This document shows positions 2,537-11,535 of a stretch of 32,901 nucleotides of DNA, piece after piece. The stretch's first letter is position 1; each line of letters starts with the position of its first letter. Both the position numbers and the translations under genes were made by a program. The notes under the pieces are model-generated. The model saw only the letters and a program-made list of their open reading frames with translations. It was not told the DNA's origin and did no database searches. This DNA is from a virus. Location of the stretch: positions 1-32,901 of IMG/VR virus record IMGVR_UViG_3300022074_000196. One strand, 5' to 3'.

Positions 2537-2928
2537 TTTTCTAGCTCCTGGTGTGTGTTGACCTGCTCGTGCACGGGGGTGTATAGGCCCGGGCCGGGGG
2601 GGGTCTGGCGCGATTCCGGGTCAAAAACGCACTCCCCCAGCACAACATATGGTAGCGATTCAGCATATCGTACATGAGCCTATTAAGCATACTACATATG
2701 GACGCGATAATTAACATAATAACGATTATCCGACTCTTACTCCACCAGATCGCGCGTGCGCGCGCGACGCTTTCTTAGTGTGTGAAACATAGGTTTACGT
2801 AAAAATAGGCGACACTGACAGAAAGGTATAAAAGAACAGTGTCGCCTAGGTGGCGCGCAAACGCCGGGAGGAATGAGGCGCTGCGCACTGAGAGAGACGA
2901 GCCGGAACAATAGCTCATGTCTGACATG
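2537..2928. promoter_or_regulatory. Non-coding spacer before terS, candidate promoter/packaging region
   Basis: No convincing gene lies in these 392 bases. Besides the terminator (listed separately) it holds a GGCCCGGGCC palindrome (2586-2595) running into eight Gs (2596-2603), two copies of ACATATGG (2645-2652 and 2694-2701), a GATAAT...ATTATC inverted pair (2706-2730) and an alternating CG-rich patch (about 2750-2766). Such structure suits a promoter for the terminase genes or a pac/cos recognition site. I cannot identify a clean -35/-10 pair, so the role is inferred. Confidence 0.45.
2801..2848 (-). terminator. Rho-independent terminator ending the replication operon
   Basis: A perfect 12-bp inverted repeat (TAGGCGACACTG at 2806-2817 and CAGTGTCGCCTA at 2837-2848) encloses a 19-base loop. 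On the minus strand it is followed directly by TTTTT (2801-2805). It lies about 80 bases after the stop of the DUF6378 gene, so it would separate the replication transcript from terS/terL. The stem is mixed rather than strongly GC-rich, but it is long and perfect. Confidence 0.82.
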
Positions 2929-3213
2929 TTACTTGTTCTCATCGTTGTCACCTAATCTCAGGGCAATGACCAGGTAGTTCGCAGCGTCCATTAAGCTATC
3001 CTGATGCACTCCTGCATTGTCCAACCTTGCAAGCTTTAGCTCCACCATCATGCGAGCCACATCGTAAGCCGTTATGTCAGAAGAGAGTTTCTGGCTTAGC
3101 ACGGCGTTCCACCTTTGTGCTATTCTTTCGTGGCTTTCTCTCGCGTCTCCATAACTTGTCTCGCGCTCCTTCAGTATCTTCTCCAACCTTGTCAATGTCT
3201 CGCGGTAGCTCAT
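2929..3213 (-). CDS. DUF6378 domain protein
   Basis: The 94-aa protein fits the DUF6378 pattern common in phage replication regions: RETSYGDARESHERIAQRW near the N-terminus, then AYDVARMMVELKLARL, then H-QDSLMDAANYLVIAL at the C-terminus. No biochemical function is established that I know of. The helical fold and conserved acidic/His positions resemble MazG-like nucleotide hydrolases, which is only a suggestion. The start has AAGGAGA eight bases upstream. It overlaps the preceding 147-aa frame by 137 bases, which is unusual (see findings). It is the last gene before the terminator. Confidence 0.88.
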   Translation of the reverse strand: MSYRETLTRLEKILKERETSYGDARESHERIAQRWNAVLSQKLSSDITAYDVARMMVELKLARLDNAGVHQDSLMDAANYLVIALRLGDNDENK

Positions 3214-3520
3214 CTCTTCTCCTTGCTCGATATCGCGCGTATCCCTTACCGTCGTGGACGACGACGACGTACTGCCGGTCGATCAGGTGCAGCAATCTCT
3301 GCATCATGTCCTTGAACGGCTCGTCCATTGCGCCTGCGAGCTCTGCAGCTTCCCAAGCATATCGCTCTCGCATTAACGCAAGCAGCTCCAACTCGAACTC
3401 GCTGAGCGGTTCGAGCCATTGCTTTTTCTTTTTGTCCTTCGGCGCTCTACGTTGACGGCCTGACCGTGCAGCGTCTCGCTGCATGCTCAGCATCCGCTCG
3501 CGCATTTCATCCTCTGTCAT
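3077..3520 (-). CDS. Hypothetical protein with helical, possibly winged-helix core
   Basis: This 147-aa frame has a basic N-terminus (residues 15-33), a helical middle (SEFELELLALMRERYAWEAA, about 40-59) and a segment resembling a wing (LIDRQYVVVVHDGKGYARYR), which could be a winged-helix DNA-binding domain. The last 45 or so residues are Arg/Lys/Glu-rich and overlap the DUF6378 gene in another frame, so they may be a genuine overlap or the result of an indel. The start follows GGGAG by eight bases and overlaps the upstream zinc-ribbon gene by 14 bases. I do not recognise a family. Confidence 0.6.
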   Translation of the reverse strand: MTEDEMRERMLSMQRDAARSGRQRRAPKDKKKKQWLEPLSEFELELLALMRERYAWEAAELAGAMDEPFKDMMQRLLHLIDRQYVVVVHDGKGYARYRARRRDELPRDIDKVGEDTEGARDKLWRRERKPRKNSTKVERRAKPETLF

Positions 3521-3845
3521 GTTCGAGCTCCCACTTCCTCTGCAGGATCATCTCACGTTGAACAGCGCTCCACCTTGTCAGATGCGGTGCGTTCAAATGT
3601 CTGCGTCGGTTCGCAAGTCCATCTAGTTCCTGCAATGAGTTATACGCCCTCAAAGCGGCATAAAACTCTTTTTCTCCAAGCTGAGAATAATCGGCTAAAA
3701 ATCGGCTCCGTCCGGCATGGCATATGCGGCATATCCCCCTAAAGGGGGATATGTCCGTAAATATGCCACTGCCACGGGATACGGCCCCCGGCATATTATG
3801 CCGGCATATGCCACAATCTGCCGGTCTGCCAGCGTCATTCTGCAC
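3507..3845 (-). CDS. Small zinc-ribbon protein
   Basis: The 112-aa protein has CGIC near residue 11 and CRIC near residue 39, about 24 residues apart, with an F and a G between them and HAGRSR after the second pair. This is the layout of the zinc ribbons found in many small phage proteins and at the front of HNH/endonuclease VII-like proteins. No nuclease motif follows; the rest (ADYSQLGEKEFYAALRAY and onward) is helical. The start is a GTG overlapping the primase-helicase stop by 11 bases. The DNA encoding the ribbon is packed with inverted repeats (3711-3807), so the segment may have a second, cis-acting role. Confidence 0.6.
   Translation of the reverse strand: MQNDAGRPADCGICRHNMPGAVSRGSGIFTDISPFRGICRICHAGRSRFLADYSQLGEKEFYAALRAYNSLQELDGLANRRRHLNAPHLTRWSAVQREMILQRKWELEHDRG
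3711..3807. repeat. Cluster of hairpins and GGCATAT/ATATGCC repeats
   Basis: Within about 100 bases there is an 11-bp perfect hairpin with a two-base loop (CATATCCCCCT AA AGGGGGATATG, about 3731-3754). There is also an 8-bp hairpin (CCGGCATA T TATGCCGG, about 3788-3804) and at least five copies of GGCATAT or its complement. The cluster sits inside the 5' half of the zinc-ribbon gene, directly after the primase-helicase gene. Iterated motifs plus hairpins next to replication genes are typical of origins or operators; this role is inferred. Confidence 0.55.
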
Positions 3846-5673
3846 GTCTTAATACCTCATCATTTTGCTGCAACATTTCCTGTTCGATTAGCTTCTTTAT
3901 GTTGTGGTTAAATCGCTTCCTATCGTTGTACTTTTCGCCTGTTCCATGCCTGCTGATGTACGCATCTTTGAGCTCTGCTCTATTCACTTCGCCATGCTCT
4001 TGCATGCTCTCAAATAGCTCCATGACCGCGCGTTGTGACTTGTTCATGCTGCCCTCTGGGTCGCCATTTGGCACGTCCTCTGTCTTTTGCAGAACAATGC
4101 TACTGACCTCTTCAAGCTCTGGCGTCATCAGCTCCACGGGCAGCTTGAGGAAGGCCATTTGCGGCGGGAACGCATCTTCCTTCATTTTAGTCCACGTCAC
4201 GATAACTTTTGCCAGCTCGTCTTCGCCCGATTGCTCGACGCGGAACTCATGGTCTAGTGCTGCGGTGATATTTGACGCGCCTCTGCCGCGCTCTTTGTTA
4301 GCGTGTCCAGTGTGGTGCACTAAAAGCACGACCATGTCCTTATACCGCTCACGCAGCCCGTCCAGCTCGCCTATGAGCAGGTTCATGTCGGTGCCACTAC
4401 TTTCCTCTGATGCACCCAGAGAGCGCGCCAGCGTGTCAACTACAAGCATACCTGGCACACCTTTGGCTTCGATCATGTCGTCTATTTGCTCGACCATGTG
4501 CTTAACTTGCTCTGGTTCACTAAGCACGACCGCGCGATTGCTTTTGTAAAACTCTGCTTCACCGGCTTCGACGTTGTTGTGCTTTTTCCATGCAGCGATA
4601 CGCCGGGCTAGTCCGTTGCCACCTTCGCCTGCTAGGTAGAAAACCGGCTTTTTCTTTGTTGCATATCCGTTCCATGCGCGCCCGGTGGCCACGCAGAGCG
4701 CTAAATCGAGCACCAGAAACGTCTTACCGCTGCCTGATGAGCCAAAGCACATGGCGAGCGTGTCTTGTTCCAGCAGTCCTTCTATGAGCCACTCTGGCTT
4801 GCGGATCTTTAGCTGGTCTATGTGCGTAAAGAGGGCAGGGCGTTCTGGCTCTGTGTATGCGTCCTGCAGCCTCTGTAAGCCCTCCCTGACTGCATCTAGC
4901 CCATTTGCTAGGTGTAAGTCGTTCCAATCCCAATTATCAACCGGTGGCAGGCTGTAAGGCTGTTTTGCGGCGTGTGCGGCTGCAATGCCTGGTTCGTCGT
5001 TATCGCCTGCCACGCGCAAATCTATGTCAGGCCATGTACAATTTATTTTATTACAAACTTTTGGTAGGGTGCCTGCGTCGAGCGCAAATACGACCGTTTC
5101 TTGTGTAGCTAGGTGCACACTAACGCCGGTAGCATATCCTTCTGTGACCCAAACTGGCCCGGGTTTGAGCTGGCCTATGACGCCGAATGCGTCGTCTTTC
5201 TTTAGGCCACTGTTAAACTTCTTGCTGCCACAGGGTTGAATTCTTTGCTCGCCTACGACCTTGCCTTCGTAATTGTAGAGAGGCACGACGACTGTATTGC
5301 CATCCATTTGCGCATTGATAAGCTCGATACCTTTTGCTTGTATGTAGTCTTTGGCGGTCGTATCGAGCTTTACAACGTTACCAAAATCGCTCACGCTGGG
5401 CTTTGGTCTGTACTCATACTGTTTCGTCAGTACGGGCCAAACACCGTCGTGTGCCATTTCTGCAGTGATTGATTTAAAATCGTTGCATTGTCTGCAGAAG
5501 ACTTTGACCAGCCCTTGATGCTCTGAGATCCAAAAGCGGGTGCTTGGCCAGTCGTTGTGTCCACAATTTGGGCACGCCCCATGCCATTCGCCTTTTGGGC
5601 CTTCGCGGAGCGAGTATTTGGTTATGATCTGATCAGACCACTCGCTCCAGTATGGTTGTGGAAAGTCTTTCAT
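3835..5673 (-). CDS. Primase-helicase (zinc finger, TOPRIM, RepA-like AAA)
   Basis: The 612-aa replication protein combines three parts. A CHC2-like zinc finger has C34/C37 (CPNCGH) and C60/C63 (CRQC). A TOPRIM-type primase domain spans about 172-236 with E178 (WVTEGYATG) and the DxD at 224-226 (AGDNDEPG). A RecA/RepA-type helicase ATPase (AAA_25-like) has Walker A GSSGSGKT at 311-318 and Walker B MLVVDTLA around D413, then LLVHHTGHANKERGRGAS, matching the RepA/DnaB-like core. It would prime and unwind the phage replication fork. The ATG overlaps the stop of the 371-aa gene (ATGA), showing coupling. No DNA polymerase is present nearby. Confidence 0.93.
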   Translation of the reverse strand: MKDFPQPYWSEWSDQIITKYSLREGPKGEWHGACPNCGHNDWPSTRFWISEHQGLVKVFCRQCNDFKSITAEMAHDGVWPVLTKQYEYRPKPSVSDFGNVVKLDTTAKDYIQAKGIELINAQMDGNTVVVPLYNYEGKVVGEQRIQPCGSKKFNSGLKKDDAFGVIGQLKPGPVWVTEGYATGVSVHLATQETVVFALDAGTLPKVCNKINCTWPDIDLRVAGDNDEPGIAAAHAAKQPYSLPPVDNWDWNDLHLANGLDAVREGLQRLQDAYTEPERPALFTHIDQLKIRKPEWLIEGLLEQDTLAMCFGSSGSGKTFLVLDLALCVATGRAWNGYATKKKPVFYLAGEGGNGLARRIAAWKKHNNVEAGEAEFYKSNRAVVLSEPEQVKHMVEQIDDMIEAKGVPGMLVVDTLARSLGASEESSGTDMNLLIGELDGLRERYKDMVVLLVHHTGHANKERGRGASNITAALDHEFRVEQSGEDELAKVIVTWTKMKEDAFPPQMAFLKLPVELMTPELEEVSSIVLQKTEDVPNGDPEGSMNKSQRAVMELFESMQEHGEVNRAELKDAYISRHGTGEKYNDRKRFNHNIKKLIEQEMLQQNDEVLRRAE

Positions 5674-6785
5674 GCGTGATCCAGTATTTTGCTAAATCTT
5701 CTGGAAAGCTCGGTTTGGCAGACTAAGCCTTCTGGAGCAGATTCAATATCAACGTAAGGAATACCGTCTGTGGTCCACTCATTAATAGAGTTAATATGTT
5801 TGCCGGGCAGTAAGATGTTTACGCCATACCCGTTCCATTTAAACTTCCGCAGCCCTTTTGTGTGGCTTCTGATAATTTTCTTTTCGCCGCCTGCCATTGT
5901 ACGCTCATAAGCTCTGACAATGTGAAATATGCGTTTTGTCTGTCCGTTTTCATTTACCACCTTGTCGCGGTCATTGAAAAAGTATGGTGTTCTGAGCATG
6001 TCAATTGCAAAGGTAATACGGCGATTGCCTTTACTTACACGCACTTGGACGCCTTGATCAGAGGCGACGCACATATTCACGGCACTCCAGAGTACGAAGC
6101 TAACATACTCGCTCATGCTTATTTTCGCTTCTATGCAGTGTTGCTCCAGCAGTTCTGGGTATTTCCAGCGTGTGCGTACAAAATACGGACCACGCTTATC
6201 GTGTTTATTGGTCTTGAGGTGCACGGGTTCTTGCATAAGTGTCTTAAGTGGTTGCACAGAGCCGTCTTCGCTGACCTCGACGTGGAAAATGTCTGTCATA
6301 GAAAGCTGGTCGCGCTCGCTGTCGAAAACAAAGCCGCACTCAAGCGTGATGTTGTTAGTGGGCTGGACGTTGAACGGTCGCTTGATGCGCCGAAAAAAAA
6401 CCATAGTGGGCCACAGTTTATCTTCGTTGGCTTTTTCAATTTCTCGGTTTCTTTGAACGGTTCCCATGTAAGCACTGCCTAATGCCGGGATGTCGTTGAC
6501 GTCGATCTTCCAGTGGTTGTCGTCAGTATTTCGCACGACGAGATTTTTGTCAGAGACATGGCAGGCAATTTTGCTGAAGATTTTATACAAGTGCTTGTCG
6601 GCTTTCTTTAGACCATTCATTGCGGTGAAAGCTTCATCTATATTGTCCAGCAAGTCGGACAGGTAGTAATGCGCGCCGTAGTGCTTTTTTTCACGTCGCG
6701 CTGATGGTTTGCGTGGTTTTTTTTCTGGCTTGCAAAGCTGATAACGCAGCCCCAACCAGGTCAAAAGTTTGGTTAGCCATTTCAT
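5670..6785 (-). CDS. Conserved replication-region protein of unknown function
   Basis: This 371-aa protein lies between a 71-aa gene and the primase-helicase, overlapping the latter by four bases. It has a basic N-terminus (residues 19-35), a central region of mixed strands and helices, and a distinctive C-terminal segment SHTKGLRKFKWNGYGVNILL. I have the impression of having seen a similar KGLRxFxWNGYxV motif in alphaproteobacterial phages, but I know no assigned function. There are no nuclease, ATPase or membrane motifs. Position suggests replication initiation or an accessory factor, but this rests on neighbourhood alone. Confidence 0.75.
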   Translation of the reverse strand: MKWLTKLLTWLGLRYQLCKPEKKPRKPSARREKKHYGAHYYLSDLLDNIDEAFTAMNGLKKADKHLYKIFSKIACHVSDKNLVVRNTDDNHWKIDVNDIPALGSAYMGTVQRNREIEKANEDKLWPTMVFFRRIKRPFNVQPTNNITLECGFVFDSERDQLSMTDIFHVEVSEDGSVQPLKTLMQEPVHLKTNKHDKRGPYFVRTRWKYPELLEQHCIEAKISMSEYVSFVLWSAVNMCVASDQGVQVRVSKGNRRITFAIDMLRTPYFFNDRDKVVNENGQTKRIFHIVRAYERTMAGGEKKIIRSHTKGLRKFKWNGYGVNILLPGKHINSINEWTTDGIPYVDIESAPEGLVCQTELSRRFSKILDHA

Positions 6786-9154: not shown

Positions 9155-9617
9155 GCTCTTTTCTCCATTCGCGCCAGGCCAATATTTCTCTTGTCAGCTT
9201 ACAAAATGCTGTAAAGCTTAGATCAGCTTGGTCCTCGTTGTTGTGAGTTTTTGTGCCTGTCTCGGCTTCTACAATTGCAGAAAATGGTACGACCGCCCTT
9301 GGAGCTAAGCGGTCGTACCGATACACGACACAGGGAAAGGAACCGTCGTGTAAACTGCTGGCTATCTGTGCCTGCCACCACGCGCCAGCAGGTATGAAAT
9401 TTCCCGCACGTCTGCGCTTAAGTTCTAATGAGAACGGAAAGTCAGCGTCGTCAGGCACAAGGTCAGAATGACCTGCCGTTCTCGTTTGCTCCAAATTTCT
9501 TTGGAATTTTATGCCGAGCTCCATCTCAAGAAGCCTCGCTATTTCTAGTTCGAAGCTTGATCCCCGGTGCTTTGCGAGACTTCCAGTTTGGCTTGCACTG
9601 CGTTTTTTTTTGCTCAT
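9111..9617 (-). CDS. PD-(D/E)XK nuclease, Holliday-junction resolvase-like
   Basis: The 168-aa protein has the archaeal-resolvase/VRR-type layout. RGSSFELEIARLL carries E23, TAGHSDLVPDD carries D52, and SLELKRRR supplies the E65-x-K67 pair. It should cut branched DNA, resolving recombination or replication junctions before packaging. The start codon lies next to a run of nine As, and the first 92 bases overlap the ribbon-helix-helix gene in a different frame. The ribosome site is weak (GAGG about 11 bases upstream), so translation may depend on the upstream gene or on slippage (see findings). Confidence 0.84.
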   Translation of the reverse strand: MSKKKRSASQTGSLAKHRGSSFELEIARLLEMELGIKFQRNLEQTRTAGHSDLVPDDADFPFSLELKRRRAGNFIPAGAWWQAQIASSLHDGSFPCVVYRYDRLAPRAVVPFSAIVEAETGTKTHNNEDQADLSFTAFCKLTREILAWREWRKEHDEGHDQNVSGFKT

Positions 9618-9747
9618 CGTATTTCTGCCTCAAAATGCGTTCGACTGTTTTGCCGAGCGTGCGGTCTTCTCTTACGGCCTCAGCGTCGAGCCATTGCTTC
9701 AATTCACGATCAATGCGGCAAAACAGATCTGCTGATTCTTTGTTCAT
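9526..9747 (-). CDS. Ribbon-helix-helix (Arc-like) DNA-binding protein
   Basis: This 73-aa protein starts with a beta-strand ADLFCRIDRELKQWLDAEA followed by EDRTLGKTVERIL, the Arc/MetJ ribbon-helix-helix layout (strand, helix, turn, helix) within residues 6-45. Such proteins are dimeric repressors. It is the first gene of the minus-strand replication operon, next to a divergent control region with a palindrome, so autoregulation is plausible. The C-terminal 28 residues are basic and run over the start of the nuclease gene. Confidence 0.75.
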   Translation of the reverse strand: MNKESADLFCRIDRELKQWLDAEAVREDRTLGKTVERILRQKYDEQKKTQCKPNWKSRKAPGIKLRTRNSEAS

Positions 9748-9863
9748 TATTGACCCATAGTTAGTGATGAAAAATTTTATGTATGGCTGGTCTTGAACAA
9801 ATGCATATCACCTGATATGTCTCTTGAGAAGGTAACAGTTTGTGAACACTAGGAGGGTTGGGA
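9748..9863. promoter_or_regulatory. Divergent control region with 16-bp palindrome
   Basis: This short region separates the divergent ribbon-helix-helix gene and the recombinase-like gene. It contains a perfect palindrome CATATCA CC TGATATG (9804-9819). A TTGAAC (9793-9798) could be a plus-strand -35 box. On the minus strand a TAAAAT just left of the palindrome could be a -10 box with TTGTTC 15 bases upstream. Either promoter would be overlapped by the palindrome, as expected for an operator. The plus-strand gene has AGGAGG at 9851-9856. Promoter boxes are weak matches; the palindrome is certain. Confidence 0.6.
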
Positions 9864-10601
9864 ATGAGCTTTGTTGGATTCATAAGTGGCTTGCAAAAGA
9901 AAGAACAAGCCGCGCACAAGGCAGCAATAAAAAAAGCCGTCGTTCAGACGTACAGCACTGAAGGCCAAGACATTGACTGGCTAATCGAAGACGAAGCGCA
10001 TGGTAAATGGGACTTCGTAGAACGACCTTTGCTTATGAAAGCCATTAAACGCGCTTTAGCTGGTGACATGGTTTTCTGCATCTCTACACTGAAAGGCTTT
10101 GGCGAAAGACAATGGCAGGGCATGGAGTTTTTTAGTCAACAATCAGAGGAGCACGGCTTAGATCTTCTCGTCGCTGACGAGCCGACCATGACCGGCTCCA
10201 CAATTACTTTTCTAGCACTGGCAGGTAAAGCACAACGTGAGCGGATGGTTGCCAAATCTCAAGCTGCTTTGACGTCAATAAAACAAATTATTGACAGGGA
10301 AGGGAAGTATATTTCAAAAAAGGGACGCACAATAAAAAAGCTTGGGCGGCACGACAAGGTTGGTGAAGCCAGCCGAAAAGGTGCCGACGTCGGTTTCAAA
10401 CGCGCTAGATCGCGCGAAGAAGAGCTATGGCCTCTGATTAAAGATTGCCGTGATCGAGGCATGAACTATTCAGAGACAGCTCGCCACTTAACTAACATGG
10501 GAATTCCCACATTAAGCGAAATGGGAAAACATAAACGCACAACAAAAGGAATTTGGCACCCGAATAAGGTGCGTGCAATTATACTAAGGAGACAGAAATG
10601 A
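9864..10601 (+). CDS. Serine recombinase homologue, probably inactive
   Basis: The 245-aa protein aligns by eye along its full length with small serine recombinases (resolvase/invertase). There is an FIS at 6-8 where RVS is expected, VERPLL at 52-57, GDMVFCISTLKGFGER at 68-82, an ER helix at 126-127 and a C-terminal HTH-like part GMNYSETARHLTNMGIPT (199-216). S8 and R54 are kept, but the usual DRLGR motif reads KGFGE (77-81) and the first catalytic Arg is F6, so strand cleavage is doubtful. ATG 9864 is seven bases after AGGAGG and preferred over TTG 9858. It probably acts as a DNA-binding regulator; this is inferred. It is the first gene of the plus-strand island. Confidence 0.75.
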   Translation: MSFVGFISGLQKKEQAAHKAAIKKAVVQTYSTEGQDIDWLIEDEAHGKWDFVERPLLMKAIKRALAGDMVFCISTLKGFGERQWQGMEFFSQQSEEHGLDLLVADEPTMTGSTITFLALAGKAQRERMVAKSQAALTSIKQIIDREGKYISKKGRTIKKLGRHDKVGEASRKGADVGFKRARSREEELWPLIKDCRDRGMNYSETARHLTNMGIPTLSEMGKHKRTTKGIWHPNKVRAIILRRQK

Positions 10602-11083
10602 AAGCCGATTTAGGTTCAATCGAAGAATACTCAATACAAAAAATTAGTGACTCTGCTTTTCGAAACGCTGCTGAAAGTTGGATTTATATTCAAATGGACA
10701 TGATCCGTTGGCGAAAAGAATCGGGTAATAAACGATATCAAAAATGGGCTTTTAGCAGCTTACCTAAGTTCGAGTTTATGATATTGATGCTTGGAAGTTA
10801 CTTCCAGTCTCACCCCATGAATGTTAAAGAGATAACAGAGCGACTAAAAGTATCTGAAAAGACAGTTTATAGCTTTATCAGTGTTTGTGAAGCAGAAGGT
10901 TGGATAAACGTGTCGCGGACAAAAAAAGGTAACTATTACAAAGCCTCACAGGCAATTCTTGATGGTTACTTTAAATTTTTAACAAAATATTTTGACGCCT
11001 GTAGAGCTAGAAATCTTAAATTAAATTTCGATATGCTCTCAGCCCTACAAAATTTTCGCACTGAAGAATTGCACAAAAATTAG
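10598..11083 (+). CDS. Winged-helix DNA-binding protein, MarR-like
   Basis: The 161-aa protein has a helix-turn-helix at about 77-95 (VKEITERLKVSEKTVYSFI) followed by a wing (GWINVSRTKKGNYYKAS), typical of MarR-type regulators. Helices before and after may form the dimer interface. Its start overlaps the recombinase-like gene by four bases and is preceded by AAGGAGA in the end of that gene, so the two are co-translated. It is likely a transcription regulator of this island or of the phage switch; the target is not known. Confidence 0.72.
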   Translation: MKADLGSIEEYSIQKISDSAFRNAAESWIYIQMDMIRWRKESGNKRYQKWAFSSLPKFEFMILMLGSYFQSHPMNVKEITERLKVSEKTVYSFISVCEAEGWINVSRTKKGNYYKASQAILDGYFKFLTKYFDACRARNLKLNFDMLSALQNFRTEELHKN

Positions 11084-11147: not shown

Positions 11148-11243
11148 ATGAGCACAGGAGGTACACAAGTTGAAGCCGCGCAGAAAGAAAAAATTATTGA
11201 ATCCGATTTTGGTCAAAATGATGACCGGGCGGATGAGATTTAG
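11148..11243 (+). CDS. Possible short leader ORF (31 aa)
   Basis: An ATG at 11148 opens a 31-codon frame (MSTGGTQVEAAQKEKIIESD and onward) that contains the AGGAGG of the next gene and ends within it. The composition is protein-like and acidic, in contrast with the very basic overlapping frame. Its own ribosome site is weak. It could be a coupling leader, the remains of a longer gene or chance; I keep it as a low-confidence entry. Confidence 0.25.
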   Translation: MSTGGTQVEAAQKEKIIESDFGQNDDRADEI

Positions 11244-11535
11244 AAGACGACTCGACGTTCCAATGTGGGACGCTGAACACTTGGACAAGGTTGTTAACAT
11301 CCTGACAGATGGAGCCGATAAAATCAGACGGATACGCGGTAATAATGAACTTAGAACCGACGACAAGCTAATGTGTGCACAAATGATTATCCAGACCATG
11401 CAGAGTGATCTGCAGCGTATGAAACCAACTGATCCGCGCGAGCGTGGTACTGAAAAGTTAGAATATACATCATTCGGTCTGGTCGATCGTAACGGTCACG
11501 ACGAAGTACAAAGGCGAGGTGACAGAGAAATTTAA
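11170..11535 (+). CDS. Basic hypothetical protein
   Basis: A 121-aa protein with a very basic first 27 residues (KPRRKKK, GRMRFRRR), then a helical body (MWDAEHLDKVVNILTDGADK, DDKLMCAQMIIQTMQSDLQR). The best start is TTG 11170, eight bases after a perfect AGGAGG; in-frame ATGs at 11218 and 11233 are alternatives without good ribosome sites. I recognise no family. The plus-strand regulatory neighbourhood suggests a small nucleic-acid-binding or host-takeover protein, but this is only inferred. Confidence 0.58.
   Translation: MKPRRKKKLLNPILVKMMTGRMRFRRRLDVPMWDAEHLDKVVNILTDGADKIRRIRGNNELRTDDKLMCAQMIIQTMQSDLQRMKPTDPRERGTEKLEYTSFGLVDRNGHDEVQRRGDREI

Follow-up and report, generated by a model that had tools for sequence, protein, structure and literature searches.

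Does the gene at positions 9864–10601 still encode a working serine recombinase, or has a recombinase homologue lost its active site, under selection for DNA binding or synapsis without cutting, and become a regulator next to a palindromic operator, as the original prediction proposed? The window, by which we mean the whole stretch of DNA analysed, is an IMG/VR virus record in its full length of 32,901 bases, from a marine phage. The portal protein of this phage shares 39.6% identity with its counterpart in Octadecabacter Antarctic DB virus 2, and RecE-like, terminase-like and endolysin genes were also found. The gene in question is an open frame with AGGAGG just 5' of its ATG; it is read opposite to the genes at its left, and an ATGA overlap joins its stop to the start codon of the downstream gene (Table 1).

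Descent of the protein and its operon slot

Taken alone, the window protein matched nothing in Pfam, PHROGs, NCBIfam or PDB sequence searches, and no close relatives were retrieved from viral contigs with its own peptides or from phage records by tblastn. Relatives were instead reached through intermediates: a search with the neighbouring winged-HTH-like gene led to phages in which a serine recombinase gene immediately precedes that gene, and further members came from a DNA pattern that encodes the common peptide GRTIxKLGxHD and then from the third gene of the operon (28 loci). A hidden Markov model of 34 catalytically intact relatives recognizes the window protein with 148 bits (E 2.3e-47) and gives no score to any other frame of the region. 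The resemblance to resolvases and invertases earlier seen by eye is thus homology beyond chance, but the alignment with gamma-delta resolvase itself is not significant (score 41 against a shuffled mean of 34 and maximum of 62). A plasmid recombinase of Roseomonas matches at E 6e-3 and aligns with a score of 109 (shuffled mean 33, sd 5.4). What proves the homology are the relatives that hold the corresponding place in the operons of uncultured marine phages. On comparison of the sequences, the open reading frame is a member by descent of the serine recombinase (resolvase/invertase) superfamily, although Pfam Resolvase is matched by 12 of 12 relatives tested and not by the window protein. A scan of a bacterial genome collection returned one relative only, which is intact and lies on a 12.4-kb phage-like contig (L040) binned in the metagenome-assembled genome of an uncultured Flavobacteriaceae.

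The AlphaFold model built with the relatives is that of a resolvase (mean pLDDT 77) and includes a predicted catalytic-domain fold with a long helix E and a C-terminal HTH with helices at residues 202–212 and 233–244. It aligns to gamma-delta resolvase (1gdt_A; Z 10.4, rmsd 8.2, 179 residues), TP901-1 (3bvp_A; Z 10.1, rmsd 3.4, 128 residues) and Sin (3pkz_G; Z 9.9, rmsd 2.7, 96 residues). In the HTH part, residues A206, L209, W231 and V236 of the invariant set are kept.

The order recombinase, winged-HTH gene and RRLDxPMW gene is shared within an uncultured marine phage group. The RRLD(I/V)PMW gene is present in 28 viral loci at 40–54% identity, most of which have the same operon; it has no Pfam or PHROG match and no match in cultured phage records. 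Intact marine phage recombinases (L020, L041, L066, L015 and others) hold the orthologous slot and carry GRTIxKLGxHD like the window protein. Their candidate roles may include phage integration or the resolution of prophages that exist as circular plasmids; small serine recombinases have been reported for prophages of this kind (PMC8026635). A search of the window and of L077, the closest relative (below), with PF00589, PF00239 and PHROG 1 gave no second recombinase or tyrosine integrase, in records that are possibly incomplete. In G001, however, the portal is split across both ends of the record, which suggests that this record is circularly complete.

The slot varies among related phages. 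Three of them (L020, L032 and L033) have an intact recombinase and the RRLD gene with no winged-HTH gene between, and in L016 (9842–11780) unrelated small ORFs occupy the place of recombinase, winged-HTH and RRLD genes. The winged-HTH-like gene is also found directly 3' of a tyrosine integrase (PHROG 1) in two phage contigs (L012 1675–3130 and L013 717–2172), there upstream of an apparent T7-type RNA polymerase gene; it accompanies two unrelated recombinase types and might be a directionality factor or regulator. Elsewhere, at the region of window gene 5670–6785, L007 has two ORFs of about 290 aa (2918–3799 and 4007–4879) with a common QHR motif (GQHRCWAI / AQHRLNAV).

Table 1. Features of the locus, in window coordinates; positions of protein parts are residue numbers.
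Feature	Position	Strand	Remarks
Divergent ribbon-helix-helix (Arc-like) gene	9526..9747	-	candidate palindrome binder; phrog_228 Arc-like repressor, E 0.0047
Promoter-like element TTGAAC-17-TATGTC	9791..9819	+	ends approximate; reads toward the recombinase operon; position conserved in related phages; by inspection, consensus resemblance only
Palindrome CATATCACCTGATATG	9804..9819	.	within the -35/-10 region; candidate operator position common to the phage group, not recombinase-specific
Catalytically dead serine recombinase homologue (pseudo-recombinase)	9864..10601	+	245 aa; predicted parts: b1 3–8, aA 13–30, active-site loop 77–82 (KGFGER), aE 111–146, arm/hairpin with GRTIKKLGRHD 154–164, helix 161–197, HTH 202–244
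Codons K77-G78-F79-G80-E81-R82	10092..10109	+	R68 and R71 positions of intact relatives, both Arg lost (G78, E81)
Codons of GRTIKKLGRHD (residues 154–164)	10323..10355	+	arm signature, between helix E and DNA-binding domain; family-level conservation
Winged-HTH-like partner gene	10598..11083	+	ATGA overlap with recombinase stop; partner in most related phages
Third operon gene, RRLD(I/V)PMW motif	11170..11535	+	no assigned function; served to establish operon orthology

Loss of the catalytic residues

All 34 intact relatives have R8, S10, T11, Q14, R45, R68, R71, E118, R119, R125 and T126. Leaving aside T126, the window protein retains only R45 (Arg54, the arginine of VERP, already recognized as kept) and R119 (Arg125), and has Gly78, Glu81, Gln124 and Lys131 at R68, R71, E118 and R125. 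The previously remarked KGFGE, in place of a DRLGR-type motif, occupies residues 77–81, where the intact relatives all have xR(F/M/L)(S/A)R; both loop arginines are invariant in these relatives and lost in the window protein and L077. The damage exceeds what had been claimed, with E118 changed to Gln and R125 to Lys as well. The arginine of R8 is also lost, this position being occupied by Ser8 (or Ile7/Gly9). Compared with the small serine recombinases (PF00239 and PF07508; gamma-delta/Tn3 resolvase, Sin), the window protein therefore shares the predicted fold, helix E, arm, C-terminal HTH and the R45 and R119 equivalents; unlike them, it has its nucleophile, R8, R68, R71, E118 and R125 replaced and gives no Pfam match of its own. 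It differs in the same way from the intact orthologues in its own slot, which keep the core catalytic set.

The serine said to be kept, S8, probably does not stand at the nucleophile position. At their start, structural alignments of the model pair window residue 1 or 2 with residue 1 or 2 of gamma-delta, residue 3 of TP901-1 and of phiC31 and residue 1 of Bxb1, and window residue 2 with Sin residue 1. With these starts and the nucleophiles S10 in gamma-delta and Bxb1, S12 in TP901-1 and phiC31 and S9 in Sin, the nucleophile would fall on window residue 10, a leucine. As judged from the first aligned residue only, the nucleophile position is probably Leu10, with R8 on Ser8; positions 9–11 are Gly-Leu-Gln in each register compatible with L077, where Ser8 is replaced by Phe8. 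A model built without N-terminal relatives was poor (pLDDT 63) and left the b1 register unsettled. Alternative MAFFT registers, which place Glu14 or Ser31 at S10, were set aside as dependent on the trimming of the relatives, and a frameshift concealing the catalytic motif was dismissed after the other frames yielded none.

Could the enzyme nevertheless be active with its residues rearranged, using S31 (in STEGQD) or S8 as nucleophile and R82 or K77 in place of a lost arginine? A sequence-only profile of the catalytic strand prefers S31 (AVVQTYSTEGQ scores 5.0, p 3e-4 per site and about 0.02 across all positions), and R82 adjoins the R71 position. However, this profile match is marginal, STEGQD reads FDGED in L077 and aligns there to the aA–b2 loop before strand 2 (LNGGNH in intact relatives), the model sets S31 after helix A, S8 is not shared with L077, and R8, R68, R71 and R125 are gone in both proteins. 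We rejected S31 as the catalytic serine and regard a rearranged activity as scarcely credible. Judged by its residues, the window protein belongs to the serine recombinases by homology but has had its active site destroyed and is very unlikely to work as an enzyme, and annotation by fold or synteny would mislabel the gene as an integrase or resolvase and the phage as temperate.

A second dead homologue and the constraint that probably remains

The last pattern scan brought the family to 65 distinct near-complete members, among which only the window protein and L077 are degenerate in this way; R119 is the sole changed residue in four others, and there are a few truncated or split proteins. One otherwise intact orthologue (L053 3430–4204) lies in two overlapping frames, with the catalytic start in one ORF and the rest in the other, through a frameshift or a sequencing error. 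The L077 protein, encoded on a 37,732-bp phage contig (IMGVR_UViG_3300033273_000108), shares 35% identity with the window protein in a full-length comparison and is degenerate at the same positions: Gly replaces R68, Pro R71, Gln E118 and Lys R125; R45 and R119 remain. One alignment sets its Ser at residue 11 at the nucleophile position, and no register supplies R8. Its Pfam Resolvase match is sub-threshold (20.8 bits, E 8.6e-6). Its gene is followed by a winged-HTH-like gene and an RRLD gene, the same operon as in the window, and the two phages have many genes in common, at about 31–69% identity. In the tree, both proteins form one clade (100/100 support), nested among intact proteins on a common stem of 1.32 changes per column, and comparison of these sequences indicates that catalysis was most likely lost once, before the two phages parted.

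The two dead proteins have not diverged evenly. Between them, 32 of 129 positions (25%) are identical in the catalytic part and 53 of 112 (47%) in the C-terminal part (Fisher p 4e-4), a ratio of 1.91 against at most 1.02 in intact I–II pairs and at most 1.00 in intact II–II pairs. In the active-site regions, identity is 0.17–0.22 between the window protein and the intact groups and 0.35–0.36 between intact groups, while the helix-E end and arm give 0.46–0.48 and 0.49, respectively; in the HTH part, the window protein is only about 30–36% identical to intact relatives. The ratio of recombinase to RRLD gene distance is 2.38 in the window and 0.37–0.67 in 14 other phages, distances this long being imprecise. 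In those 14 phages, the recombinase is the more conserved gene, and by this measure the window has undergone a rate shift specific to the recombinase. A frame free of stops at such divergence would be unlikely under drift (rough p 3e-5 to 2e-3); dN/dS is not estimable because the dead sequences number two and are 35% identical. The pattern most likely reflects a catalytic constraint that was lost and a predicted DNA-binding constraint that was kept. The earlier proposal of an active site lost with the DNA-binding half retained is borne out by this second dead homologue, its single clade with the window protein and a C-terminal half conserved about twice as well.

A gene no longer needed for recombination might simply be drifting to loss with no present function. 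The very long branch of the window protein is consistent with such decay, as are L016, whose portal is 60% identical to the window's and which has neither the recombinase nor its two operon partners, and the split gene of L053, which indicates that loss is possible; with L016 lacking it, the recombinase gene is not essential to the phage group. But two phages whose proteins are 35% identical both have the dead version in intact ORFs, the C-terminal half is the better kept, the stop-free frame is hard to obtain without selection, and the ribosome-binding site and ATGA coupling persist, so that we find decay unlikely. Because the same dead version occurs in a second phage, the protein was probably converted to a DNA-binding protein and not simply broken; from its presence in two phages with the C-terminal half kept, we infer that it was retained, most likely for DNA binding.

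We consider it probable that a once-active recombinase died once and was kept as a DNA-binding protein acting by occupancy. The ancestor would have been a small serine recombinase that was active and held this operon slot within the uncultured marine phage group, and its catalytic apparatus would have been lost before the window and L077 phages separated. Selection would since have maintained an intact, expressed-looking protein through its helix-E end, arm and HTH, with the catalytic half only loosely constrained. Most likely the dead protein, probably a dimer, binds DNA sites of recombinase type, and by occupying them it may act in regulation or in DNA architecture within the phage that encodes it. 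In known systems, Sin is bound but catalytically inactive at its regulatory site (PMC2428073).

An occupying protein could also be turned against others. As a dominant-negative competitor, it would hold the recombination sites of related phages or prophages equipped with the intact enzyme, or enter the dimers of that enzyme, and block recombination, a form of superinfection interference. The retained DNA-binding half and predicted fold, the abundance of intact relatives within the same phage group, and the catalytically inactive S10A Tn3 resolvase domains, which still join site complexes and work at the accessory sites II and III (PMC9943657), would all suit such a role. The HTH identity of about 30–36% to intact relatives makes shared site specificity doubtful, and this competitor role also appears improbable to us. 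A broader formulation is offered tentatively, as a possibility short of an expectation: a pseudo-serine-recombinase clade, maintained vertically, that is now either a transcriptional or lysis/lysogeny regulator, matching MrpR on the serine recombinase side, or a dominant-negative agent directed at related phages in which the intact enzyme is still in use.

MrpR, the master repressor of phage SPbeta, has the fold of a tyrosine recombinase but no longer recombines DNA, having become a repressor (PMC10516654). It may serve as a working model for the window protein, by analogy, as a phage recombinase fold turned DNA-binding repressor; the two are not homologous, and repression was demonstrated for MrpR and is inferred here. 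This conversion is documented for the tyrosine recombinase and was not found for phage serine recombinases in the literature searched, which likewise yielded no inactive serine recombinase in phages. The sole dead member found there is a predicted one from a poxvirus: vaccinia F16, described in PMC11980589 (citing Senkevich et al., 2011) as a predicted catalytically inactive protein of the serine recombinase superfamily. By that description, F16 and the window protein are both viral, of the same superfamily and predicted dead, although F16 belongs to an unrelated virus and is targeted to nucleoli of eukaryotic cells. Because intact and dead orthologues occupy the same slot in related phages, the conversion is directly testable by binding and complementation.

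The shared control region upstream

The palindrome proposed as the operator of the recombinase homologue is real (CATATCACCTGATATG is the sole match in the window with up to two mismatches allowed), but its link to that homologue, the one operator candidate examined, is not supported. A private autoregulatory switch, in which the dead recombinase binds this palindrome as its own operator, would suit a palindrome that adjoins the gene, and promoter autorepression is known among Tn3 family resolvases. However, phages with intact recombinases have the same candidate operator position, and an identical GATATCACAGTGATATC stands there both in L016, which is without a recombinase, and in L077, where other ORFs separate the promoter region from the dead gene about 1.9 kb downstream. 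A private switch is accordingly a long shot, and the candidate operator belongs to a shared control region. As its constant neighbour is the divergent ribbon-helix-helix gene, we provisionally assign the palindrome as the candidate operator of the ribbon-helix-helix protein.

The divergent region of related phages reads, by inspection, TTGnAn, a palindrome in the spacer and TATnTn. This arrangement of a promoter-like element with a spacer palindrome beside a ribbon-helix-helix gene, seen at 9748–9863 of the window and in the divergent regions of L014–L077, extends through a large uncultured phage group. The sequence of the spacer palindrome varies among phage subgroups, possibly in step with the ribbon-helix-helix protein. 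Inside the ribbon-helix-helix gene of the window lies a perfect 11-nt inverted repeat, CTGTTTTGCCG/CGGCAAAACAG (9645–9655 / 9716–9726).
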